From Cyanobacteriota bacterium (GTDB taxonomy: Bacteria; Acidobacteriota; Vicinamibacteria; Vicinamibacterales; UBA2999), in contig JAIEMQ010000025.1 of assembly GCA_019752015.1 (NCBI GenBank), forward strand, positions 1 through 64,000: a stretch of 64,000 nt of DNA. Direction: 5' to 3'. The notes under the pieces were generated by a model that was not told the origin of the DNA, did not search any database, and worked only from the letters and a program-made list of their open reading frames with translations. The position numbers and the translations under genes are program-made. Shown here in pieces: positions 16,388 to 46,912 of the stretch. Each line of letters opens with the position of its first letter. Position 1 is the stretch's first letter.

Positions 16388-17662
16388 GTGTCCACCGCCG
16401 TCCTGATCGCGCTCGCGTTTGCGGCCGGCTTCCTGCTGGCGATGGCGATCGCCGCCGCGCGGCGATCGTCGATGGAAGTCGTCAATCGCGGGCGCGTCAC
16501 CACGATGCTGTCGGCGGCGAAGCGCTACGCGCTGGGCGATCTGACGCGTCCGTCACCGGACTACGGCGACGACGGTCTCGGCCAGGTGGCGCGCGCCATG
16601 GACCAGGCGATCCATGAAACCGGCCGCCGCGTCGAAACGCTCGAGCGCGATCGCGCCCGGATGGAAGCGATCCTCGCCAGCATGATCGAAGGCGTGCTGG
16701 TGGTGAACGAACAGGGCCGGCTGCAACTCGTCAACGATGCGGCGCGCCGGATCCTCAAGCTCGAGAAAGGCGCCATCGATCACGCCTACGTCGAAGCGAT
16801 CCGCCATCCCGGCATCGTCGAGCACATCGGCCGCGCGCTGCGGGGCGAAGAGACCGAGGGGCTCGAGCTGTCGGTGACGCGCGACACCACGCGCACGCTG
16901 GTCGCGCGGGTCACGCCGGTCACGGCGGCGGGCCGCGGCGCGGTGCTGGTGCTGCACGACATCACCGAATTGCGCAACGCCGATCAAGTGCGCCGCGATT
17001 TCGTCGCCAACGTCTCGCACGAGCTGCGCACGCCGCTGACGGCGATCAAAGGCTACGCGGAAGCGCTGCTGGACGATCCCGACGATGCGGAGGCGCGGGA
17101 AAAATTTCTCGACATCATCCACCGCCACGCGACGCGGATGGAGCGCCTCGTCAAGGACTTGCTGCGCCTGGCGCGCCTCGACGCCGGACAGGAGACGGTC
17201 GAAATCGTGCCGTGCGACGTCGACAGCCTGCTGCGCGGCATTGCCAACGACTTCGAGCCGATCGCCGCGCAGAAGCAGCAGACCATCGACGTCCAGGTGG
17301 CCGGCGCGGCGGCGACCCTGACGACCGACGCCGCGAAGCTCCATGACGTCGCGCGCAACCTGATCGAAAACGCCGTGAATTACACGCCCGGCGGCGGCGC
17401 GATCGAAGTCCACGCAACGGTGAAAGAAGGCCAATTCGTATTGACGGTCGCCGATACCGGCCACGGCATTGCGCCCGATGACCTGGCGCGCGTGTTCGAG
17501 CGCTTCTACCGCGTCGACAAGTCGCGGACGCGGCCCGGCGGCACCGGGCTGGGCCTGTCGATCGTCAAGCACCTCGTGCACGTGATGGACGGCGAAGTGA
17601 CGGCGTCCAACCAGGCCGGCGGCGGCGCCCTGTTCACGGTTACTCTGCCGATGAAAAGGTAA
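16388..17662 (+). CDS. phoR: PhoR-type sensor histidine kinase
   Basis: A 424-residue kinase starting at GTG: one N-terminal membrane helix (AVLIALAFAAGFLLAMAIAA), a linker, a PAS domain (about 95-200, ILASMIEGVLVVNEQGRLQLVND), HisKA with the phospho-acceptor in FVANVSHELRTPLTAIKG, and HATPase_c with N box (LIENAVNYTPGG), G1 (VADTGHGIAPDD), F box and G2 (GGTGLGLSIVKHLV). The lack of a large periplasmic loop is PhoR-like. It is co-transcribed with the regulator. Its last codons and stop (AAAAGGTAA) merge into the GGAAAAAGG repeat array that follows. Confidence 0.87.
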   Translation: MSTAVLIALAFAAGFLLAMAIAAARRSSMEVVNRGRVTTMLSAAKRYALGDLTRPSPDYGDDGLGQVARAMDQAIHETGRRVETLERDRARMEAILASMIEGVLVVNEQGRLQLVNDAARRILKLEKGAIDHAYVEAIRHPGIVEHIGRALRGEETEGLELSVTRDTTRTLVARVTPVTAAGRGAVLVLHDITELRNADQVRRDFVANVSHELRTPLTAIKGYAEALLDDPDDAEAREKFLDIIHRHATRMERLVKDLLRLARLDAGQETVEIVPCDVDSLLRGIANDFEPIAAQKQQTIDVQVAGAAATLTTDAAKLHDVARNLIENAVNYTPGGGAIEVHATVKEGQFVLTVADTGHGIAPDDLARVFERFYRVDKSRTRPGGTGLGLSIVKHLVHVMDGEVTASNQAGGGALFTVTLPMKR

Positions 17663-17720
17663 AAGGAAAAAGGTAAAAGGAAAAAGGTAAAAGGAAAAAG
17701 GAAAAAGGAAAAGAAAAAGG
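17654..17720 (+). repeat. GGAAAAAGGTAAAA tandem array, left boundary of a cassette
   Basis: AAAAGGTAAAAGGAAAAAGG-type units are repeated about six times, beginning inside the last codons of phoR and supplying its TAA stop. The complementary CCTTTTTCC array lies at 18175-18234 beyond the four-helix-bundle gene, so the two arrays are inverted arms about 450 bases apart. Confidence 0.8.
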
Positions 17721-17756
17721 TGTAGTGGCTACCCTGCACGAGAAGTTCCTACTCGT

Positions 17757-18119
17757 TTAGCGTCGGCGAGCAGTCTTCAAAGACGTCGTCAAGATCGCGA
17801 CGAGCTGCGAAGCCTCGTCGAGTAACGGCTCCAAATCCGTCTTCGTATTGGCGGCGTCGCTCATCAAGCGAAGCCAGAACTGCGTTTCGCGCATCTCACG
17901 CAACGCGATGAATCGCTTTGCGATCCAATCTCTTTTGCTCTGAGATCCTCGGCTCTCAGCCGTATTGGCCCCGGCGGAGGTGCCGCTTTTTAGCACTTGC
18001 CGCCACATCAGCCGATCGGCATCATCCCTCGGTGAAGAGGCTCTGTAAGCACTGATCAGTGAAAGCGCAAACTTGAAGGTCCGCGAGTCGACAGGAACTA
18101 ATCCAGATTCGTTTGGCAT
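17757..18119 (-). CDS. Four-helix-bundle protein (S23/23S rRNA intervening-sequence family)
   Basis: A 120-residue all-helical protein. The signature is SGTSAGANTAESRGSQSKRD followed by WIAKRFIALREMRETQFWLRLM, typical of the four-helix-bundle family first found in 23S rRNA intervening sequences and related to the Avd protein of diversity-generating retroelements. Its function outside those settings is unknown. ATG at 18119 gives the usual short N-terminus; a TTG at 18149 would extend it by ten residues. The gene sits alone between inverted repeat arrays and between the convergent ends of phoR and kup. Its GC content appears lower than that of its neighbours, suggesting it arrived as a unit. 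Confidence 0.85.
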   Translation of the reverse strand: MPNESGLVPVDSRTFKFALSLISAYRASSPRDDADRLMWRQVLKSGTSAGANTAESRGSQSKRDWIAKRFIALREMRETQFWLRLMSDAANTKTDLEPLLDEASQLVAILTTSLKTARRR

Positions 18120-18174
18120 GGCCAAATCACTCAGCAATCTGAATGCCAAAGAACCTGCTCTCCGTTTTTCTGTC

Positions 18175-18234
18175 GTTTTCCTTTTTCCTTTTTCCTTTTT
18201 CCTTTTTCCTTTTTCCTTTTTCCTTTTTCCTTTC
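18175..18234 (-). repeat. CCTTTTTCC tandem array, right boundary of a cassette
   Basis: About nine units of CTTTTTC run up to the kup stop codon (18234-18236). They are the reverse complement of the array at 17654-17720. A long transcript across both could form a hairpin enclosing the four-helix-bundle gene. Confidence 0.8.
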
Positions 18235-20168
18235 TACATTTCCACCTGAACACCGAGCTCGACGACGCGCTCGGTCGGCAGACGGAAGTAGGTGGTCGCG
18301 CGCACGGCGTTGCGCGACATCACCACGAACAACTTCTCGCGCCAGCGCGCCATGCCTTCGCCGCTCGTCACCAGCAGCGTTTCCCGGCCGAGAAAATAGA
18401 CGACGTCCTGGAAATCGAATTTCATGCCGCGCGCCCGGGCCGCGGCCAGCAGCGCGCGCGGCACGTGCGGATCTTCCATGAATCCGTACTGCAGCCGGAC
18501 GCTGTAAAGCCCGTTGCCGAGATCGTCCACCGAGAACCGATCGTGATCGGAACAATGCGGCTGCTGGATGGTGATGATGTTGAGTATGACGACGCGCTCG
18601 TGGAGCACCTTGTTGTACTGGAGATTGTGCACGAGCGCCGGCGGCACGCCGCGCGGCTGGGCGGTCATGTAGATCGCCGTTCCGGGCACCCGCACCGGAT
18701 GCAGCGTGTCCACCAGCGTGAAGAAATCCGGGATCGAGACCGTGCGCTTCGCCAGACGCTCCGCCACGATCGCGCGGCCGGTCCGCCACGTCGTCATGAC
18801 CAGGAAGATCACGGCGGCGACGACCAGCGGCAGCCATCCGCCCTGCACGATCTTGAGCGCGTTGGCGCCGAAGAAGGCGAGATCGATCGTCAGGAACACG
18901 CCCATCACCACCACCGCCAGCGGCATGGGCCAGCGCCATCGCTCGGTCATGACCACGAACAACAGCAGCGCGGTGATGATCATCGTCAGCGTCACGGCGA
19001 TGCCATACGCGGCGGCCAGCGCGCTCGACGAGCCGAAACCGATCACGATCACCACCGTGGCGACCATCAGCGCCCAGTTGACCCTCGGGACATACACCTG
19101 TCCCATTGCCTTCGCCGAGGTGTGCTCGACATCAAGACGCGGCGCCAGACCGAGCTGCACCGCCTGCCTCGTGATCGAGAACGATCCGGAGATCAACGCC
19201 TGCGAGGCGATGATCGCCGCCGCCGTCGCGATCACGACCATCGGCACGAGCGCCCACGACGGCGCGAGCATGAAGAACGTGTGATCGGCTTTGGGATTGA
19301 TGAGCAGGAGCGCGCCCTGGCCGAGATAATTCAGGACCAGGCACGGCAGCACCAGCGCGAACCACGCCAGCCGGATCGGACGGCGCCCGAAGTGCCCCAT
19401 GTCGGCATACAACGCCTCGCCGCCGGTCACGACGAGGAACACCGCGCCGAGGACGGCGAACCCCATATACCCGTTGTCCGCGAAAAATCCCACGGCATGC
19501 CGGGGATCGAGCGCGCCGAGCACACTGGGCGCCCGATTGATCCACATCACGCCGAGCGCGGCGATCGTGAAAAACCAGACGATCACGACCGGGCCGAAGA
19601 GCCGGCCGACCCGGTGCGTGCCAAACCGCTGAATCGCGAACACCGCCACGAGGATCACCACCGTGATCGGCACGACGTACGGCGTCAGCTGCGGCGTCAC
19701 GACCTCGAGGCCTTCGACTGCGCCGAGAACCGTGACGGCCGGGGTGATCATGCCGTCGCCATACAACAACGCGGTGCCAAAAATGCCGAGCGCGATTAGG
19801 ACCGGGCGGCCAACGGCCAGGCGCGATCCGGATTTTTCGGCGACCGCGCCTTTCGCCGGCACCAGCGCGGTCAGCGCGAGAATGCCGCCCTCGCCCTGAT
19901 TGTCGGCACGCAGGACGAGCGCGACGTATTTCAGCGAGACGACCAGCAACAGCGCGTAAATGATCAGCGAGAGGACGCCGAGCACGTTCTCGTGCGTCGG
20001 CGGGACCGAGTGCGATCCGAAGAAGCACTCGCGCATGGCATAGAGCGGGCTGGTGCCGATGTCGCCGTAGACGACGCCGAGCGCCGTCAGGGTCAGCGGG
20101 AGGAGCCGGCTCGTGTGACTCGAGCGTGTGGAAACGGATGGTGCAATCGCAGCGGACGCGTCTGGCAC
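18234..20168 (-). CDS. kup: Low-affinity potassium transporter Kup
   Basis: A 644-residue inner-membrane K+/H+ symporter, close to the E. coli length of 622. Family landmarks are LGVVYGDIGTSPLYAMRECF near the N-terminus, ADNQGEGGILALTALV, GDGMITPAVTVLGAVEGLEV, and the cytoplasmic C-terminal domain (GTAIYMTAQPRGVPPALVHNLQYNKVLHE). Start is GTG at 20168, giving a serine/alanine-rich leader before the first helix. A small membrane protein gene precedes it by 67 bases on the same strand. It lies next to the Kdp system, so this is a potassium locus. Confidence 0.93.
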   Translation of the reverse strand: MPDASAAIAPSVSTRSSHTSRLLPLTLTALGVVYGDIGTSPLYAMRECFFGSHSVPPTHENVLGVLSLIIYALLLVVSLKYVALVLRADNQGEGGILALTALVPAKGAVAEKSGSRLAVGRPVLIALGIFGTALLYGDGMITPAVTVLGAVEGLEVVTPQLTPYVVPITVVILVAVFAIQRFGTHRVGRLFGPVVIVWFFTIAALGVMWINRAPSVLGALDPRHAVGFFADNGYMGFAVLGAVFLVVTGGEALYADMGHFGRRPIRLAWFALVLPCLVLNYLGQGALLLINPKADHTFFMLAPSWALVPMVVIATAAAIIASQALISGSFSITRQAVQLGLAPRLDVEHTSAKAMGQVYVPRVNWALMVATVVIVIGFGSSSALAAAYGIAVTLTMIITALLLFVVMTERWRWPMPLAVVVMGVFLTIDLAFFGANALKIVQGGWLPLVVAAVIFLVMTTWRTGRAIVAERLAKRTVSIPDFFTLVDTLHPVRVPGTAIYMTAQPRGVPPALVHNLQYNKVLHERVVILNIITIQQPHCSDHDRFSVDDLGNGLYSVRLQYGFMEDPHVPRALLAAARARGMKFDFQDVVYFLGRETLLVTSGEGMARWREKLFVVMSRNAVRATTYFRLPTERVVELGVQVEM

Positions 20169-40191: not shown

Positions 40192-41592
40192 ATGTCACGC
40201 ACCCGCGGCCTCGCCGCGCTCGTTGTCCTCTACATCATCATCGGCGAGCTGATCACGCCGCCCGACGGCATCACCCGGCAGGGCTGGCGGCAGACCGCGA
40301 TCTTCATTGGCGTGATCGCCGGCATGGTCACCGAGCCGATCCACGCCTCGGCGCTGGTCCTGATCGGCCTGACGGCCTGGGCCGTCACCGGCACGCCGAT
40401 GCCCGAAGTGCTCGGCGGCTACGCGCAGCCGTCGGTGTGGCTGGTGCTCGTGGCGATGCTGATCGCCAAGATGATGCTCGATTGCGGGCTGGCGCGCCGC
40501 ATCGCGCTGCTGTTCGTGCGGATGGTCGGCAAGACCTCGCTCGGCGTCGCCTATGCGCTGCAGATGACCGACGTCACGCTCGCGTCCGGCGTCCCGTCGA
40601 TCACGGCGCGCAGCGCCGGCATGGTGCTGCCGGTCGGCCGCAGCATTGCGGAGCTCTTCGACTCGCGGCCGGATCACACGCGCCTCCGGCTCGGCGCCTA
40701 TCTCGTCGCGGCGATGTATCAGGGTTCCGCGGTCGCGTGCGCAATGTTCATCACCGGCCAGGCCAGCAACCTGCTCGGCGCCAGCCTCGCATTGAAACTC
40801 GCCAACATCCAGGTGACCGCGCCGAGCTGGTTCATGGCGGCAATCGTGCCCGGGTTGCTGTCGTGCCTGGTGGTGCCGTGGATCACGTATCGCGTGCTCA
40901 CGCCGGAAGTGACGCACACGCCCGAAGCGCCGGCGTTCGCGCGCGACGAGCTGAAGAAGATGGGGCGCCTCAGCCGCAGCGAGTGGATCACGCTGCTGGT
41001 CTTTGCCGGCGTCGGCATCACGTGGTTGACGACGGTGTGGCACCGGATTGATCCGACATTGGTCGCGCTCGCCGGTCTCGCGGTGCTGCTGGCCACCGGC
41101 ACAATGACGTGGCAGACCGCCGCCGCCGAGCGATCGGCGTGGGACGTCTTCATCTGGTATGGCGGCATGCTCCGCATGGGCGAGCTGCTCAACAACACCG
41201 GCACAACGCGGGTCTTCGCGGAATGGGTCGCGGGCATGTTCGTCGGCATCCCGTGGCAGGTCGTGCTGATCGCGATCCTGATTATCTTTTTCTATACGCA
41301 CTACTTCTTCGCCAGCATCACCGCCCACATGCTGGCGATGTTCCCGCCGTTCGTGGCCGTGTTGATCGGCATCGGCGTGCCGCCGCTGCTCGCGGTCTAC
41401 AGCCTGCTCTGCCTCGCGAACCTGACGGCGGGTCTCACCCACTACGGCACGACGACGGGTCCGATCCTCTTTGGCACCGGCTACGTCACGCGCGCGGAAT
41501 GGTGGAAGGTCGGGTTCTTCGTCTCGATCGCGAACGTACTGATCTGGCTAACAGCAGGTTTCGCTTGGTGGAAATTTCTGGGCTTCTGGTAA
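40192..41592 (+). CDS. DASS-family anion:sodium symporter
   Basis: A 466-residue membrane transporter of the divalent anion:Na+ symporter family. Signatures include the SNLLGASLALKLANI region with its substrate-binding loop (TGQASN), YTHYFFASITAHMLAMFPPF, and NLTAGLTHYGTTTGPILFGTGY. Likely substrates are dicarboxylates, sulfate or phosphate. TACAAT at 40176-40181 is a -10 about 10 bases before the ATG. The longer frame upstream overlaps the divergent gene and is rejected. Confidence 0.88.
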   Translation: MSRTRGLAALVVLYIIIGELITPPDGITRQGWRQTAIFIGVIAGMVTEPIHASALVLIGLTAWAVTGTPMPEVLGGYAQPSVWLVLVAMLIAKMMLDCGLARRIALLFVRMVGKTSLGVAYALQMTDVTLASGVPSITARSAGMVLPVGRSIAELFDSRPDHTRLRLGAYLVAAMYQGSAVACAMFITGQASNLLGASLALKLANIQVTAPSWFMAAIVPGLLSCLVVPWITYRVLTPEVTHTPEAPAFARDELKKMGRLSRSEWITLLVFAGVGITWLTTVWHRIDPTLVALAGLAVLLATGTMTWQTAAAERSAWDVFIWYGGMLRMGELLNNTGTTRVFAEWVAGMFVGIPWQVVLIAILIIFFYTHYFFASITAHMLAMFPPFVAVLIGIGVPPLLAVYSLLCLANLTAGLTHYGTTTGPILFGTGYVTRAEWWKVGFFVSIANVLIWLTAGFAWWKFLGFW

Positions 41593-41703
41593 CACGAAGG
41601 ACACGAAGGCCACGAAGACTTTTTTGGAAATACCAGTGCCGCTAAGCAGCACTGGCGTTTAGAAAAAGTTTCCTTCGTGTCCTTCGTGTCCTTCGTGTTT
41701 TTC
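41591..41703. repeat. Inverted CACGAAGG/CCTTCGTG arrays with a central hairpin
   Basis: Three CACGAAGG-type units (41591-41619), a central stem CCAGTGC/GCACTGG (41633-41655), then three CCTTCGTGT units (41671-41700), with AAAAA/TTTTT next to them. The whole is one long imperfect inverted repeat between the convergent DASS and TonB-receptor stops, where it may also act as a two-way terminator. A single-sided copy is at 46870-46912. Confidence 0.8.
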
Positions 41704-41704
41704 G

Positions 41705-44700
41705 TCAGAAGCTGACCTTGAAGCCGAACTGAATGATTCGCGGATCGTACGTCGTCGTGATCGTTCCGTAAGCGGCGGCGCTTCGGTTTCCGTTCGGGGC
41801 GCGGAAGTTCGTGCGGTTCAGGAGATTGAAGAACTCGCCGCGGAACTCGAACGCGCCGTTGCGCGACCACGGCATGTCGAACCGCTTCGACAGCACCATG
41901 TCCACCGTCCACGTCAGCGGGCCGCGGATGCTGTTGCGCGGCGCATTGCCGAAGGGCTGGTCGTTGGCGGTGGGAATCGTCACCGTGGTCCGGCTCAGCC
42001 AGTTCTGGTAGCTGCGCTCGCCCGCCGGCGTGTAGGGATCGCCGCTGACATTCGGTCGATAGTTGTTGGCCCCGCGGACGTCCTGCTGAATACCCGACAC
42101 CACCTGCGCCGTCGTCGGCGTGTAGGTCAGCGTCACCGTCTCGCCGGGCGTGACGGTGTTGATGCCGGCGATCATCCAGCCGCCGAGCACCGCGTCGGTG
42201 AACGCACTCGCGTTGTTCATGTAGCGGCGGCCGCGGCCGAATGGCAGATCGATCACGAAGCTGGTCGTGCTGTTGTAAGGCTGGTGATACGCCGAGTAGC
42301 CGTAGTCCGCGTCGAGGTTGTTGATGTCCTGCGGCGCGGGGAAATTGCCGTTGGGGTTTTCGAGCGATCCGGCACCGTTGTCCTTGGTCTGCGACAGCGT
42401 CAGCGAGCTGAGCAGCCTGGTGCCGGCGCCGATGCGCCAGTCGAATTTGGTCTGGAACGAGTGATAGCGCGATTTGCCGCCGTTGAACGAATACGTGATG
42501 TCGGCGTATTCCGGAATCGGCCGCCGTGACTGCAGGGACAACGTCCCCGCGGGGTTGTTGGGCGCGGCCTGGTTCAGGTTCGCGAACAGCAGCATGCCGT
42601 TGGCGCGATTGCCGACGTAGGCGAAGTCGAGCAGCGCGCCGTTCCAGACTTCCCGCTGCACCGACACGAACCAGCTCTGCACCTCGCTCGAGCGGTAATC
42701 CTTCGGCATGTAGGTGATGTTGGCGAGCAGCGGATTGAATCGCGACGGATCGGTCAGACCCGCCGGATAGCCTTGCTGCGTGGTGCGGAACGTCGCTTCC
42801 GCCGGCGTCTGCACGACGACGGCGTTGATCACCTGCGGACCGTTGATCGGCAGCACGTTGGCGCCGCCGGCGCGGTGGAAGTGGACGTAGCTGAGGCCAT
42901 AGCCGCCGCGCAGCACGGTGCGATCGGCCAGCGTGTAGGCGACGCCAAGGCGCGGACCGAAGTTGTTGCGATCCGGTTTCAGCGTCGAGCGATCTTCGAG
43001 CGAGCCGTCGCGCGCGATCACCATCGTCTTCGTGGCGGGGTCGAAGTTCGACAGCACGTTGTTGGCTTCGGTCCACGGCGTGGCGAATTCGTAACGCAGT
43101 CCTAGGTTCAACGTCAGTCGATCGTTGATGCGCCAGTCGTCCTGCAGATACGTGAAGTGCATGTTCTGCTGCAGCCTGGCGACGAGAATATTGCTGAGCG
43201 CGTAGGTCGAGCGCAGGCCGAACATGAAGTCGGCGAGATTGTAGAGATTGTTTGCGGTGACGCCGGCGGGGCGCGAGAACTGACCCGCGTACGAATCGCG
43301 GCCATAGAGCGGATTGACGTCCTGCACTTCCGTCAGGACGCGCTGGAACTCGTAACCGGTCTTGAGCGAGTGGCGTCCCTGCAGCCACGTGTAGTTGATC
43401 TTCGGATTGAAGACGGTCGGGTACTGCCACTGCGGATTGGTCGCCTGGCGGCCCAGATCCGAGAAGCCGGTAATCAACTGCGTCGGCAGGCCGGCCGCGA
43501 CGCGCGGATCGCTCGGCAGCCCGGTGATGCCGTACACGACCTCAGCGGGCTGTTCACCCAGGAACAACGCCGCGGGATTCTTGCCACCCCTGGTATTGGA
43601 CCAGCCAAAGCGCGCTTCAAACAGCGACGACCCGGTCGGCGTATACGTGAGGCCGCTTGAAAACTGTTTGTTCGTCACGTAGGTTTCTGCGTTACCGCCG
43701 CCACCGGACGGGCCGGCGATCGGCGGGTTGTCGTAGATATCCGCATCGCGCCAGCCAACGCGTCCGAACAAGGAAAGACGTGGATTGATCTGCACGTCGA
43801 TCTTGCCGCCGGCTTTCGGCGTGCGGTTGGTGAACCGCTGAAGGATTTGCAGGTTGTTCGCCGTGTTGCCATTGGTCGGCGCCGGCAGATCATTCAGCAC
43901 CTGGCGCGCGAACGCCGTCATCGGGATTGCCGTCCCTGCCGGATACACGTCGCCGGTCAGCGGATTGCGCACGTCAACCGTCAGGATGCCGGCGCGCTGC
44001 GCCGTCGTCGCAATGGTGGAGCTGGCCGTCTGGCTGCGCGTCTGATCGAAAATCTCGACGTCGGCGAAGAAGAACGCCTTGCTCTTCACGATCGGGCCGC
44101 CGAGCACGCCGCCGAACTGATCGCGGTCGTAGCCGGGCTTGACGCCGCTCGCCGGCCTGAAGAAGCCGCCCGCGTTCAGGCCGGTGCGGCGCATGAACTC
44201 CCACGCTGAGCCGCGGAACGTGTTCGTGCCGCTCGCATACGCGACGTTGATCGTCGCGCCGGCCGAGCGTCCGTACTCGGCGCTCATGTTGTTGGTGACG
44301 ACCTTGAACTCACCCACCGCATCCGGCGACGGCTGCATCACCTGGTTCGAGAAGCCCTGGTTGCTGGTGCCGTAGGCGTTGTTGTCGACGCCGTCGATCA
44401 GGAAATTGTTGAACGTTGATCGCAGGCCGTTGACGTTGAACGATCCTTCGCGCGGGGTGAAGCCGCCGGTGTTGAGCGCCGACAGGCGGACGCCGGGCGA
44501 CAGCAGTGCCAGCGCGGAATACTCGCGGCCGTTGAGCGGCAGCGCCCTGGTCTGCTCGCCGGTGATCACCTGGCTGCGATCGCTCGAGTCGGTCTGCAGC
44601 AGCACCGCGCTGGCGCTGACTTCGACCTTCTCCGTCAACTGGCCAACCGCCATGCTCAGGTCAACGCGCTGCCGGGCGCCAACGGTGACCTGCACGTTGT

Positions 44701-46869: not shown

Positions 46870-46912
46870 GAAAAGTTCCCTTCGTGTCCTTCGTGCCCTT
46901 CGTGTTACCCAG
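46870..46912 (+). repeat. CCTTCGTG array upstream of the orphan response regulator
   Basis: Three CCTTCGTG(T/C) units after GGAAAAGTT, nearly identical to the right arm at 41662-41703. It lies between the divergent glycosyltransferase and response-regulator genes. Confidence 0.75.

Follow-up and report, generated by a model that had tools for sequence, protein, structure and literature searches.

Why should a single small gene for a four-helix-bundle (4HB) protein lie between two mirrored tandem arrays that exactly fill the space between the stop codons of two convergent genes? The question is raised by the window analysed here, the first 64,000 nt of contig JAIEMQ010000025.1, from a bacterium (hereafter the host) assigned by GTDB to the Vicinamibacterales, an order of the Acidobacteriota. 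Our answer is that the 580-bp unit between phoR and kup (17654..18233, no strand assigned) is probably one copy of a class of mobile elements in which a single 4HB gene stands between inverted arrays of a short unit, mostly of 7 nt. A repeat-bounded mobile unit had been suggested for this site by a first-pass annotation, and that reading is right in kind and far too narrow in scope. Comparison among genomes shows the same anatomy in many lineages, empty sites, dispersal and local clustering of hairpins with the same unit, replacement of the target with no duplication seen, and the same anatomy in an insertion within 23S rRNA.

The left array (17654..17720, + strand) alternates AAAAGGT and AAAAGGA, a 7-nt unit in 9.9 copies according to Tandem Repeats Finder, with 85% matches at period 7 and 97% at period 14. 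The right array (18176..18233, - strand) holds 8.3 copies of the inverted unit TTTTCCT with 100% matches, and the 58-nt arms are 95% complementary. A 9-nt unit was considered and rejected: the period is 7, and GGAAAAAGG is one unit plus an overlapping GG. In the predicted RNA of the whole element the arrays pair into one long stem with the coding sequence in the loop; the fold has z = -9.0 against 100 shuffles, and one Nostoc copy of the element gives z = -8.6.

The enclosed gene, a member of the S23 (23S rRNA IVP) family, occupies 17757..18119 on the - strand and encodes 120 aa from its ATG. The open reading frame (ORF) extends to a TTG (17757-18149), but the ATG at 18119 is the more likely start. 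The product matches PF05635 (8e-10) and TIGR02436 (5e-17), both above cut-off, and its AlphaFold2 model (pLDDT 93) has four helices, so that profile and fold together place it in the S23/TIGR02436 four-helix-bundle family, as first annotated. It is the only family match inside the element, where no nuclease, transposase or reverse-transcriptase match was found. The closest structures are PDB 2rld and 2gsc (Xcc0516 of Xanthomonas), then Avd (4dwl, TM 0.71, E 0.07); 8ub7 and 8ub8, complexes of diversity-generating retroelements (DGRs), were also matched in the fold search. When three 4HB proteins were scanned, PADLOC returned no match for any and PHROGs none for two, while the third, from locus L044 in congener G005, matched the Avd PHROG (1.5e-8).

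These Avd-like matches bear on the link to retroelement accessories proposed for the family, and on an explanation in which the 4HB protein works in trans with a reverse transcriptase of a DGR or a group II intron. The link holds for the fold only. RVT_1 has no match in the host genome (100% complete) or in seven of its eight congeners, and genome G023 carries five 4HB genes with neither RVT_1 nor a Y1 transposase. A DGR reading is thus not supported for the host, and we consider a retroelement accessory unlikely.

Is the arrangement at phoR-kup peculiar to one gene? To score a locus, we aligned its left 600 nt locally to its right 600 nt in reverse complement; the null was built from mismatched left and right flanks. 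The host has 12 PF05635 matches, eight above cut-off, and by eye short arrays surround most of its 4HB loci, almost every one with a unit of its own. Among 40 loci of the host and its relatives (two dropped for short flanks), inverted flanks exceeded 95% of the null in 31/38 and direct flanks in 7/38. Four named genomes from three further phyla gave 19/26 and 4/26 (28 of 29 matches used, the half-match L186 being left out and two loci dropped for short flanks), and plasmid loci 12/14 and 5/14. A scan of genome contigs with a single protein yielded no more than 4 loci. Further plasmid loci passed the same mark with inverted flanks in 4/4 and then 3/3 cases, L277 also having a direct score of 23. 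The plasmid records contributed 18 of 25 with a match as 4HB loci and one more as L211, and a second plasmid search 3 of 39 records with a match.

Pooled without duplicates, inverted flanks lie above the 95% null in 66 of 82 loci and direct flanks in 17; at the 99% null the counts are 51 and 8. This pool comprises 84 loci, 82 of them testable, and leaves out the same-site copies L056, L174, L176, L179, L181 and L211, together with L186 and the short-flank loci L167 and L168. A phylum search found the 4HB family in 117 of 247 genomes, and a sample of one locus per genome gave inverted flanks above the 95% null in 29/30 and direct flanks in 5/30. As a control, we placed 955 pseudo-genes at even spacing in the host: seven reached an inverted score of at least 16, of which the two highest are real 4HB loci, and 15 reached a direct score of at least 16. 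The arms of the 57 strong pooled cases have period 7 in 38 and period 8 in six, and G outnumbers C in the left arm of 45 and is outnumbered by it in nine. Named carriers include Verrucomicrobiota, Bacteroidota, Gemmatimonadota, Cyanobacteriota and Pseudomonadota. The Chloroflexota and Spirochaetota copies barely pass with inverted scores (L196, 16; L203, 14) and have strong direct repeats as well, and L197 and L199 score below the null mark. Two host loci also depart from the pattern: the arrays of L018 are direct rather than inverted, and L020 has a single array. We read L020 as degenerate: an NHL-like gene upstream runs in frame into the C-terminal part of its 4HB gene, and no left array is seen.

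The arm unit differs from site to site, and it follows the relationship of the elements rather than the locus. L202 and L217, which lie at different loci and are 86% identical in nt sequence, both have CAATTCG; TAATTCG is common to L193 and L216 (68%), and L192, L195, L214 and L215 (71-80%) carry variants of GAAGTCG. The unit therefore appears to belong to an element subfamily and not to the class as a whole. The idea that each target site templates its own unit was rejected, since related 4HB copies at different loci share a unit, which must then travel with the element. In the arms of L217 the unit is kept only near the ends and another inverted repeat occupies the middle.

Several settings of these loci deserve mention. 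Elements stand within apparently conserved operons by our reading, between leuC and leuD (L140), before obgE (L141) and before lpxA (L138). On Nostoc and Anabaena plasmids a 4HB element lies between cas2 and cas1 (L194, L200), and L191 has one just before cas1. On a Chloroflexota plasmid (L196) and a cyanobacterial one (L201) the 4HB gene has a DUF1156 gene on one side and a Swt1-HEPN gene on the other, in the same slot of a defence-like operon. At L012 (G000:C3:24203-25373) inverted arrays surround the 4HB gene and a second gene, which we read as encoding a MOSC-domain protein.

The recurrence of this anatomy also bears on whether it could be an artefact of assembly. The host is an 82-contig draft and tandem repeats are prone to misassembly, but finished, circular plasmids from Nostoc, Anabaena and Azospirillum show the same anatomy. 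An artefact is already refuted for the class, and we regard it as barely conceivable.

A search for arrays beyond the 4HB loci, which the first-pass annotation had called for, recovered copies both with and without the gene. In 864 kb of host sequence there are 84 arrays of period 5-12 (34 of period 7, 27 of period 8 and 15 of period 9), and the same sequence shuffled in 300-nt blocks with single-base composition kept gave no array at score 14. These are intergenic, dispersed tandem units of 7-9 nt, like the short tandemly repeated repetitive (STRR) sequences known from cyanobacteria. Within 2 kb, 38 of 79 host arrays (periods 6-10) have an inverted partner and five a direct one, and for 25 of the 38 that inverted partner lies at a distance below 100 bp. 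Apart from two period-6 repeats, five host pairs have loops longer than 200 bp, three of which hold a 4HB gene. The units of 49 of the 79 arrays are at most one edit from a 4HB-flanking unit of the same genome, against 17% for shuffled units; three 4HB copies account for seven of the 49 as their arms, which leaves 42/72 among the other arrays.

One subfamily illustrates this dispersal. The 4HB gene of L044 in G005 has arms of the unit AGTAGCC, and a 21-nt pattern of this unit has 111 matches in G005, 0-3 in each of eight other genomes of the genus and none when reversed as a control. In the 147 kb around L044 there are 26 AGTAGCC arrays, all within C8:350-428 kb, where they form nine inverted pairs of equal polarity, one with a 4HB gene and eight gene-less; the one neighbouring pair in opposite order is the junction of two adjacent hairpins. 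By eye, the gene-less copies (L238-L242) have a common loop core and occur in both orientations. Likewise, 11 of 19 segments with ATCTGTTG arrays in the host were found on C2:121-166 kb around L016, two of them being the arms of L016 itself. It is reasonable to regard gene-less hairpins of the same unit as non-autonomous relatives of the 4HB element.

The window offers a comparable hairpin. A gene-less inverted pair of 9-nt arrays, ACACGAAGG ... TCCTTCGTG, lies at 41592..41705 (no strand assigned), exactly between two convergent gene ends; it is a hairpin of the same general kind as the phoR-kup element with another unit. A further array of its unit is seen at 46879-46905. Elsewhere in the host, inverted arrays of the GGTGCCTG type surround a PadR-like regulator and a membrane gene by our reading (G000:C2:128967-130393, in L097), and inverted AGGTCTTG arrays 220 bp apart surround an anti-sigma-like gene, also by our reading (G000:C2:98179-98491, in L095); neither encloses a 4HB gene. 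The first of these indicates that arrays may carry other genes.

Could such hairpins be host terminators or mRNA-end structures, with 4HB genes merely tolerated in their loops? The phoR-kup copy does lie between convergent genes and has a strong RNA fold, many arrays are at most 50 bp from ORF ends, and in the host 15 of 49 placed array sites fall in convergent gaps against a baseline of 124 of 742 gene pairs. This excess is confined to the host and not seen in G005: for both genomes together the neighbours are tandem at 52 sites, convergent at 17 and divergent at nine, near the baseline of 496, 124 and 122 (rough gene calls, with 28 more sites within called ORFs left unplaced). This overall orientation speaks against a terminator-only reading. 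Moreover, elements lie within a methyltransferase gene and within 23S rRNA, the AGTAGCC unit is expanded in one species only, and terminators do not need 4HB genes. A terminator origin therefore seems unlikely to us.

Finished plasmids allow copies of the element to be compared with empty alleles that are nearly identical. In Nostoc C052, plasmid A has the element and plasmid D lacks it, the matched pieces being 95.9% identical; about 422 bp of element replace 188 bp of coding sequence, and 188 and 198 bp are found in two further empty alleles. In Nostoc ATCC 53789 and N6 an element within a DNA cytosine methyltransferase gene replaces 314-328 bp that are kept in C052 and UHCC 0302. The Aulosira element replaces 25 bp and the cas2-cas1 element 61 bp, the latter in a more diverged pair. 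On the Azospirillum lipoferum plasmid AZO_p2, a 4HB gene (L276) lies within 23S rRNA (Rfam RF02541, 2147 bits) between heptamer arms that match as inverted repeats with a score of 21 and as direct ones with 8; the second 23S copy on the plasmid is empty, and the element replaces a 19-bp stem-loop, which we take to be helix 45. Across these empty and filled comparisons (188-198, 314-328, 25, 61 and 19 bp replaced) no target-site duplication was seen; junctions were taken as the points where the alignment ends and may be several bases off. The intact methyltransferase gene has one copy of the CAATTCG unit at the left junction, which is better read as microhomology. The Azospirillum insertion bears out the family's proposed tie to rRNA intervening sequences (IVS): in this case at least, the classical rRNA IVS is the same element.

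The same data speak to a reading of the arrays as microsatellites born of slippage, with the 4HB gene a resident and the association due to a common preference for intergenic gaps. The unit does vary between sites, and over-representation of heptamers in bacteria is known (PMC4692102). However, arms match as inverted repeats and less often as direct ones, inverted partners within 2 kb outnumber direct ones by the counts given above, empty alleles exist, and the same units are found again at a distance. The empty alleles and the inverted order of the arms largely refute this reading, which we hold to be very unlikely.

At the phoR-kup site itself the left neighbour is a phoR-like histidine kinase (16388..17662, + strand) that scores below the curated PhoR cut-offs and has clear domains, and the right neighbour is the convergent K+ transporter gene kup (18234..20168, - strand). 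The exact fit described at first sight is real: the phoR stop, TAA at 17660-17662, lies within the left array, and the kup stop (18234-18236) directly adjoins the right one. Rfam has no match at 17400-18500, and this copy is intergenic rather than within an rRNA gene. With the host counted, kup is present in 22 of 40 genomes; of the 26 kup matches outside the host, the one in congener G004 (kup identity 77%) is alone in directly adjoining a phoR-like C-terminus. There the junction has 14 bp between the stops and neither gene nor array, which is the empty site whose existence the first-pass annotation had asked about. The gene and arrays were not found at this site in distant relatives, a pattern that would have meant ancient vertical inheritance, one relative being informative here. 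Either gain in the host or clean loss in G004 would explain the difference, and a single relative is insufficient to decide.

Sister sites give a broader picture. We queried 14 flanks of seven host loci in 26 genomes (host counted) and examined 20 regions. The L013 site lacks the element in G003 and G008, with 24 and 50 bp between aligned flanks, has a short relic or a single array in G004 and G002, and holds a decayed 4HB fragment in G001, flanked by inverted arrays of another unit. The L011 site lacks it in G004, G008 and G005 (50, 37 and 5 bp). At the L009 site, G006 has a related 4HB gene with further sequence, G004 a gene-less hairpin of another unit, G008 about 1.6 kb of other sequence, and G007 and G013 nothing. 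A 4HB gene with the same array type as L016 stands before the same gene in G001, G002, G008 and G013, the last of another genus; the element is missing in G004, there is a plain gap in G007, and G005 carries a gene-less hairpin whose unit is different. L010, L012 and L015 gave no usable empty site. Judged from these comparisons, the L016 copy predates the genus, and the class as a whole shows gain, loss and inheritance alike.

What would move such an element? RAYT proteins, which are Y1 nucleases, act on REPINs, and a Y1 transposase (RAYT or IS200 type) acting in trans on the hairpins could be imagined. The dispersed, hairpin-ended gene-less copies resemble REPINs, and the host has 13 Y1_Tnp matches. 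On the other hand, Y1_Tnp has no match in the 4HB carriers G030 (17 4HB matches), G023 (five) and G016 (two), G005 has six Y1 matches, all on contigs other than that of the AGTAGCC cluster, and the target is deleted at insertions. Y1 transposases do not track the 4HB element, and movement by them in trans is quite unlikely.

We favour instead a host-mediated replacement guided by microhomology. The element would spread as a strand with a hairpin-forming array at either end, which would anneal through short homology to a gap or a stalled fork; host replication and repair would then seal it in, and the DNA between the two annealing points would be deleted. Annealing at gaps or forks is favoured because there is replacement, short homology at a junction, local clustering and no duplication. 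Slippage and arm-to-arm copying could keep the two arrays alike while allowing the unit to drift. By analogy with the Avd pentamer of DGRs, the 4HB protein may bind the array stem, as RNA or single-stranded DNA, and act as a chaperone or annealing factor rather than a nuclease. An RNA intermediate of the spread would also be compatible with this scheme.

Several observations weigh against the mobile-class reading. Inverted arms above the 95% null are missing from 16/82 pooled and 2/14 plasmid loci, direct repeats pass that mark in 17/82 and 5/14, and at the 99% null the phylum sample has inverted flanks in only 11/30 (direct in 0/30), its null being raised by relatives that share units. AGTAGCC arrays also occur on other contigs of G005, which makes the clustering partial, and the arrays around the PadR-like and anti-sigma-like genes mean that a 4HB gene is not always inside. 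A full unit copy at an empty target junction is clear in one case only, exact junctions are approximate in the diverged comparisons, and the phoR-kup site is informed by one relative. The L016 gene and arrays are common to four other species, so that some copies are old and inherited. The case for mobility is comparative throughout and no transposition event was observed, and the 4HB protein has no known catalytic function.

In its broadest form our reading is more tentative, and we give it slightly less than an even chance. There would be a pan-bacterial mobile class that encodes neither a recombinase nor a nuclease nor a reverse transcriptase. Its 4HB pentamer would drive hairpin-ended DNA or RNA into targets through the annealing of heptamer arrays, and host sequence would be replaced; the unit would be free to change, giving each lineage private ends; and rRNA IVS and the intergenic heptamers of Xanthomonas and Nostoc would be parts of one phenomenon. 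If true, rRNA IVS, intergenic heptamer repeats and the S23/4HB proteins of unknown function would be joined in one class of mobile elements, and the role of the S23 protein would become directly testable. We consider the class new since, to our knowledge, no other class fits its anatomy and its way of inserting; on a stricter view it could be a variant of the rRNA IVS. We know of no described class that combines target replacement without duplication with freely changing array ends. The open-access literature yielded no description of this connection between rRNA IVS, intergenic heptamers and 4HB proteins, a search with subscription journals mostly, and preprints wholly, outside its scope.

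Compared with known systems, the element departs from DDE-type insertion sequences and miniature inverted-repeat transposable elements: the phoR-kup copy has no transposase match, and plasmid copies show target deletion and no duplication. With REPIN/RAYT systems it shares dispersed gene-less hairpins and a single-gene source element, but there the source gene encodes a Y1 nuclease and REPs are conserved palindromes, whereas here it encodes a 4HB protein, the array unit changes freely, and Y1 is absent from three 4HB carriers. With the Avd protein of DGRs (PDB 4dwl, 8ub7) it has the fold in common (TM 0.71), and it differs in that the 4HB host has no RVT_1 match. The heptamer arrays of Xanthomonas and Nostoc are also of 7 nt and often form convergent inverted pairs near ORF ends; in PMC4692102, GGGAATC arrays form 70 such pairs in Xcc and 75 in Xac, close to ORF ends, heptamer arrays are described as generally lacking association with mobile elements, and the term "four helix" is absent. 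PMC4679880 describes TAACTGA direct repeats. The rRNA IVS would be the already known corner of the class. According to PMC4990558, the Coxiella IVS has an S23p ORF enclosed as a loop by a long terminal inverted repeat, with a 28-bp terminal stem, excision by RNase III and tandem heptamers (GACAGAT) upstream of the ORF, and it is described as selfish; PMC11270868 places IVP in 16S and 23S insertions. Like these, the phoR-kup element encloses a 4HB ORF in terminal inverted repeats that pair as a stem, and L276 shares their location in an rRNA gene, which the phoR-kup copy does not. Unlike the Coxiella IVS, the 4HB elements occur genome-wide between genes, have gene-less relatives and carry one unit per subfamily.
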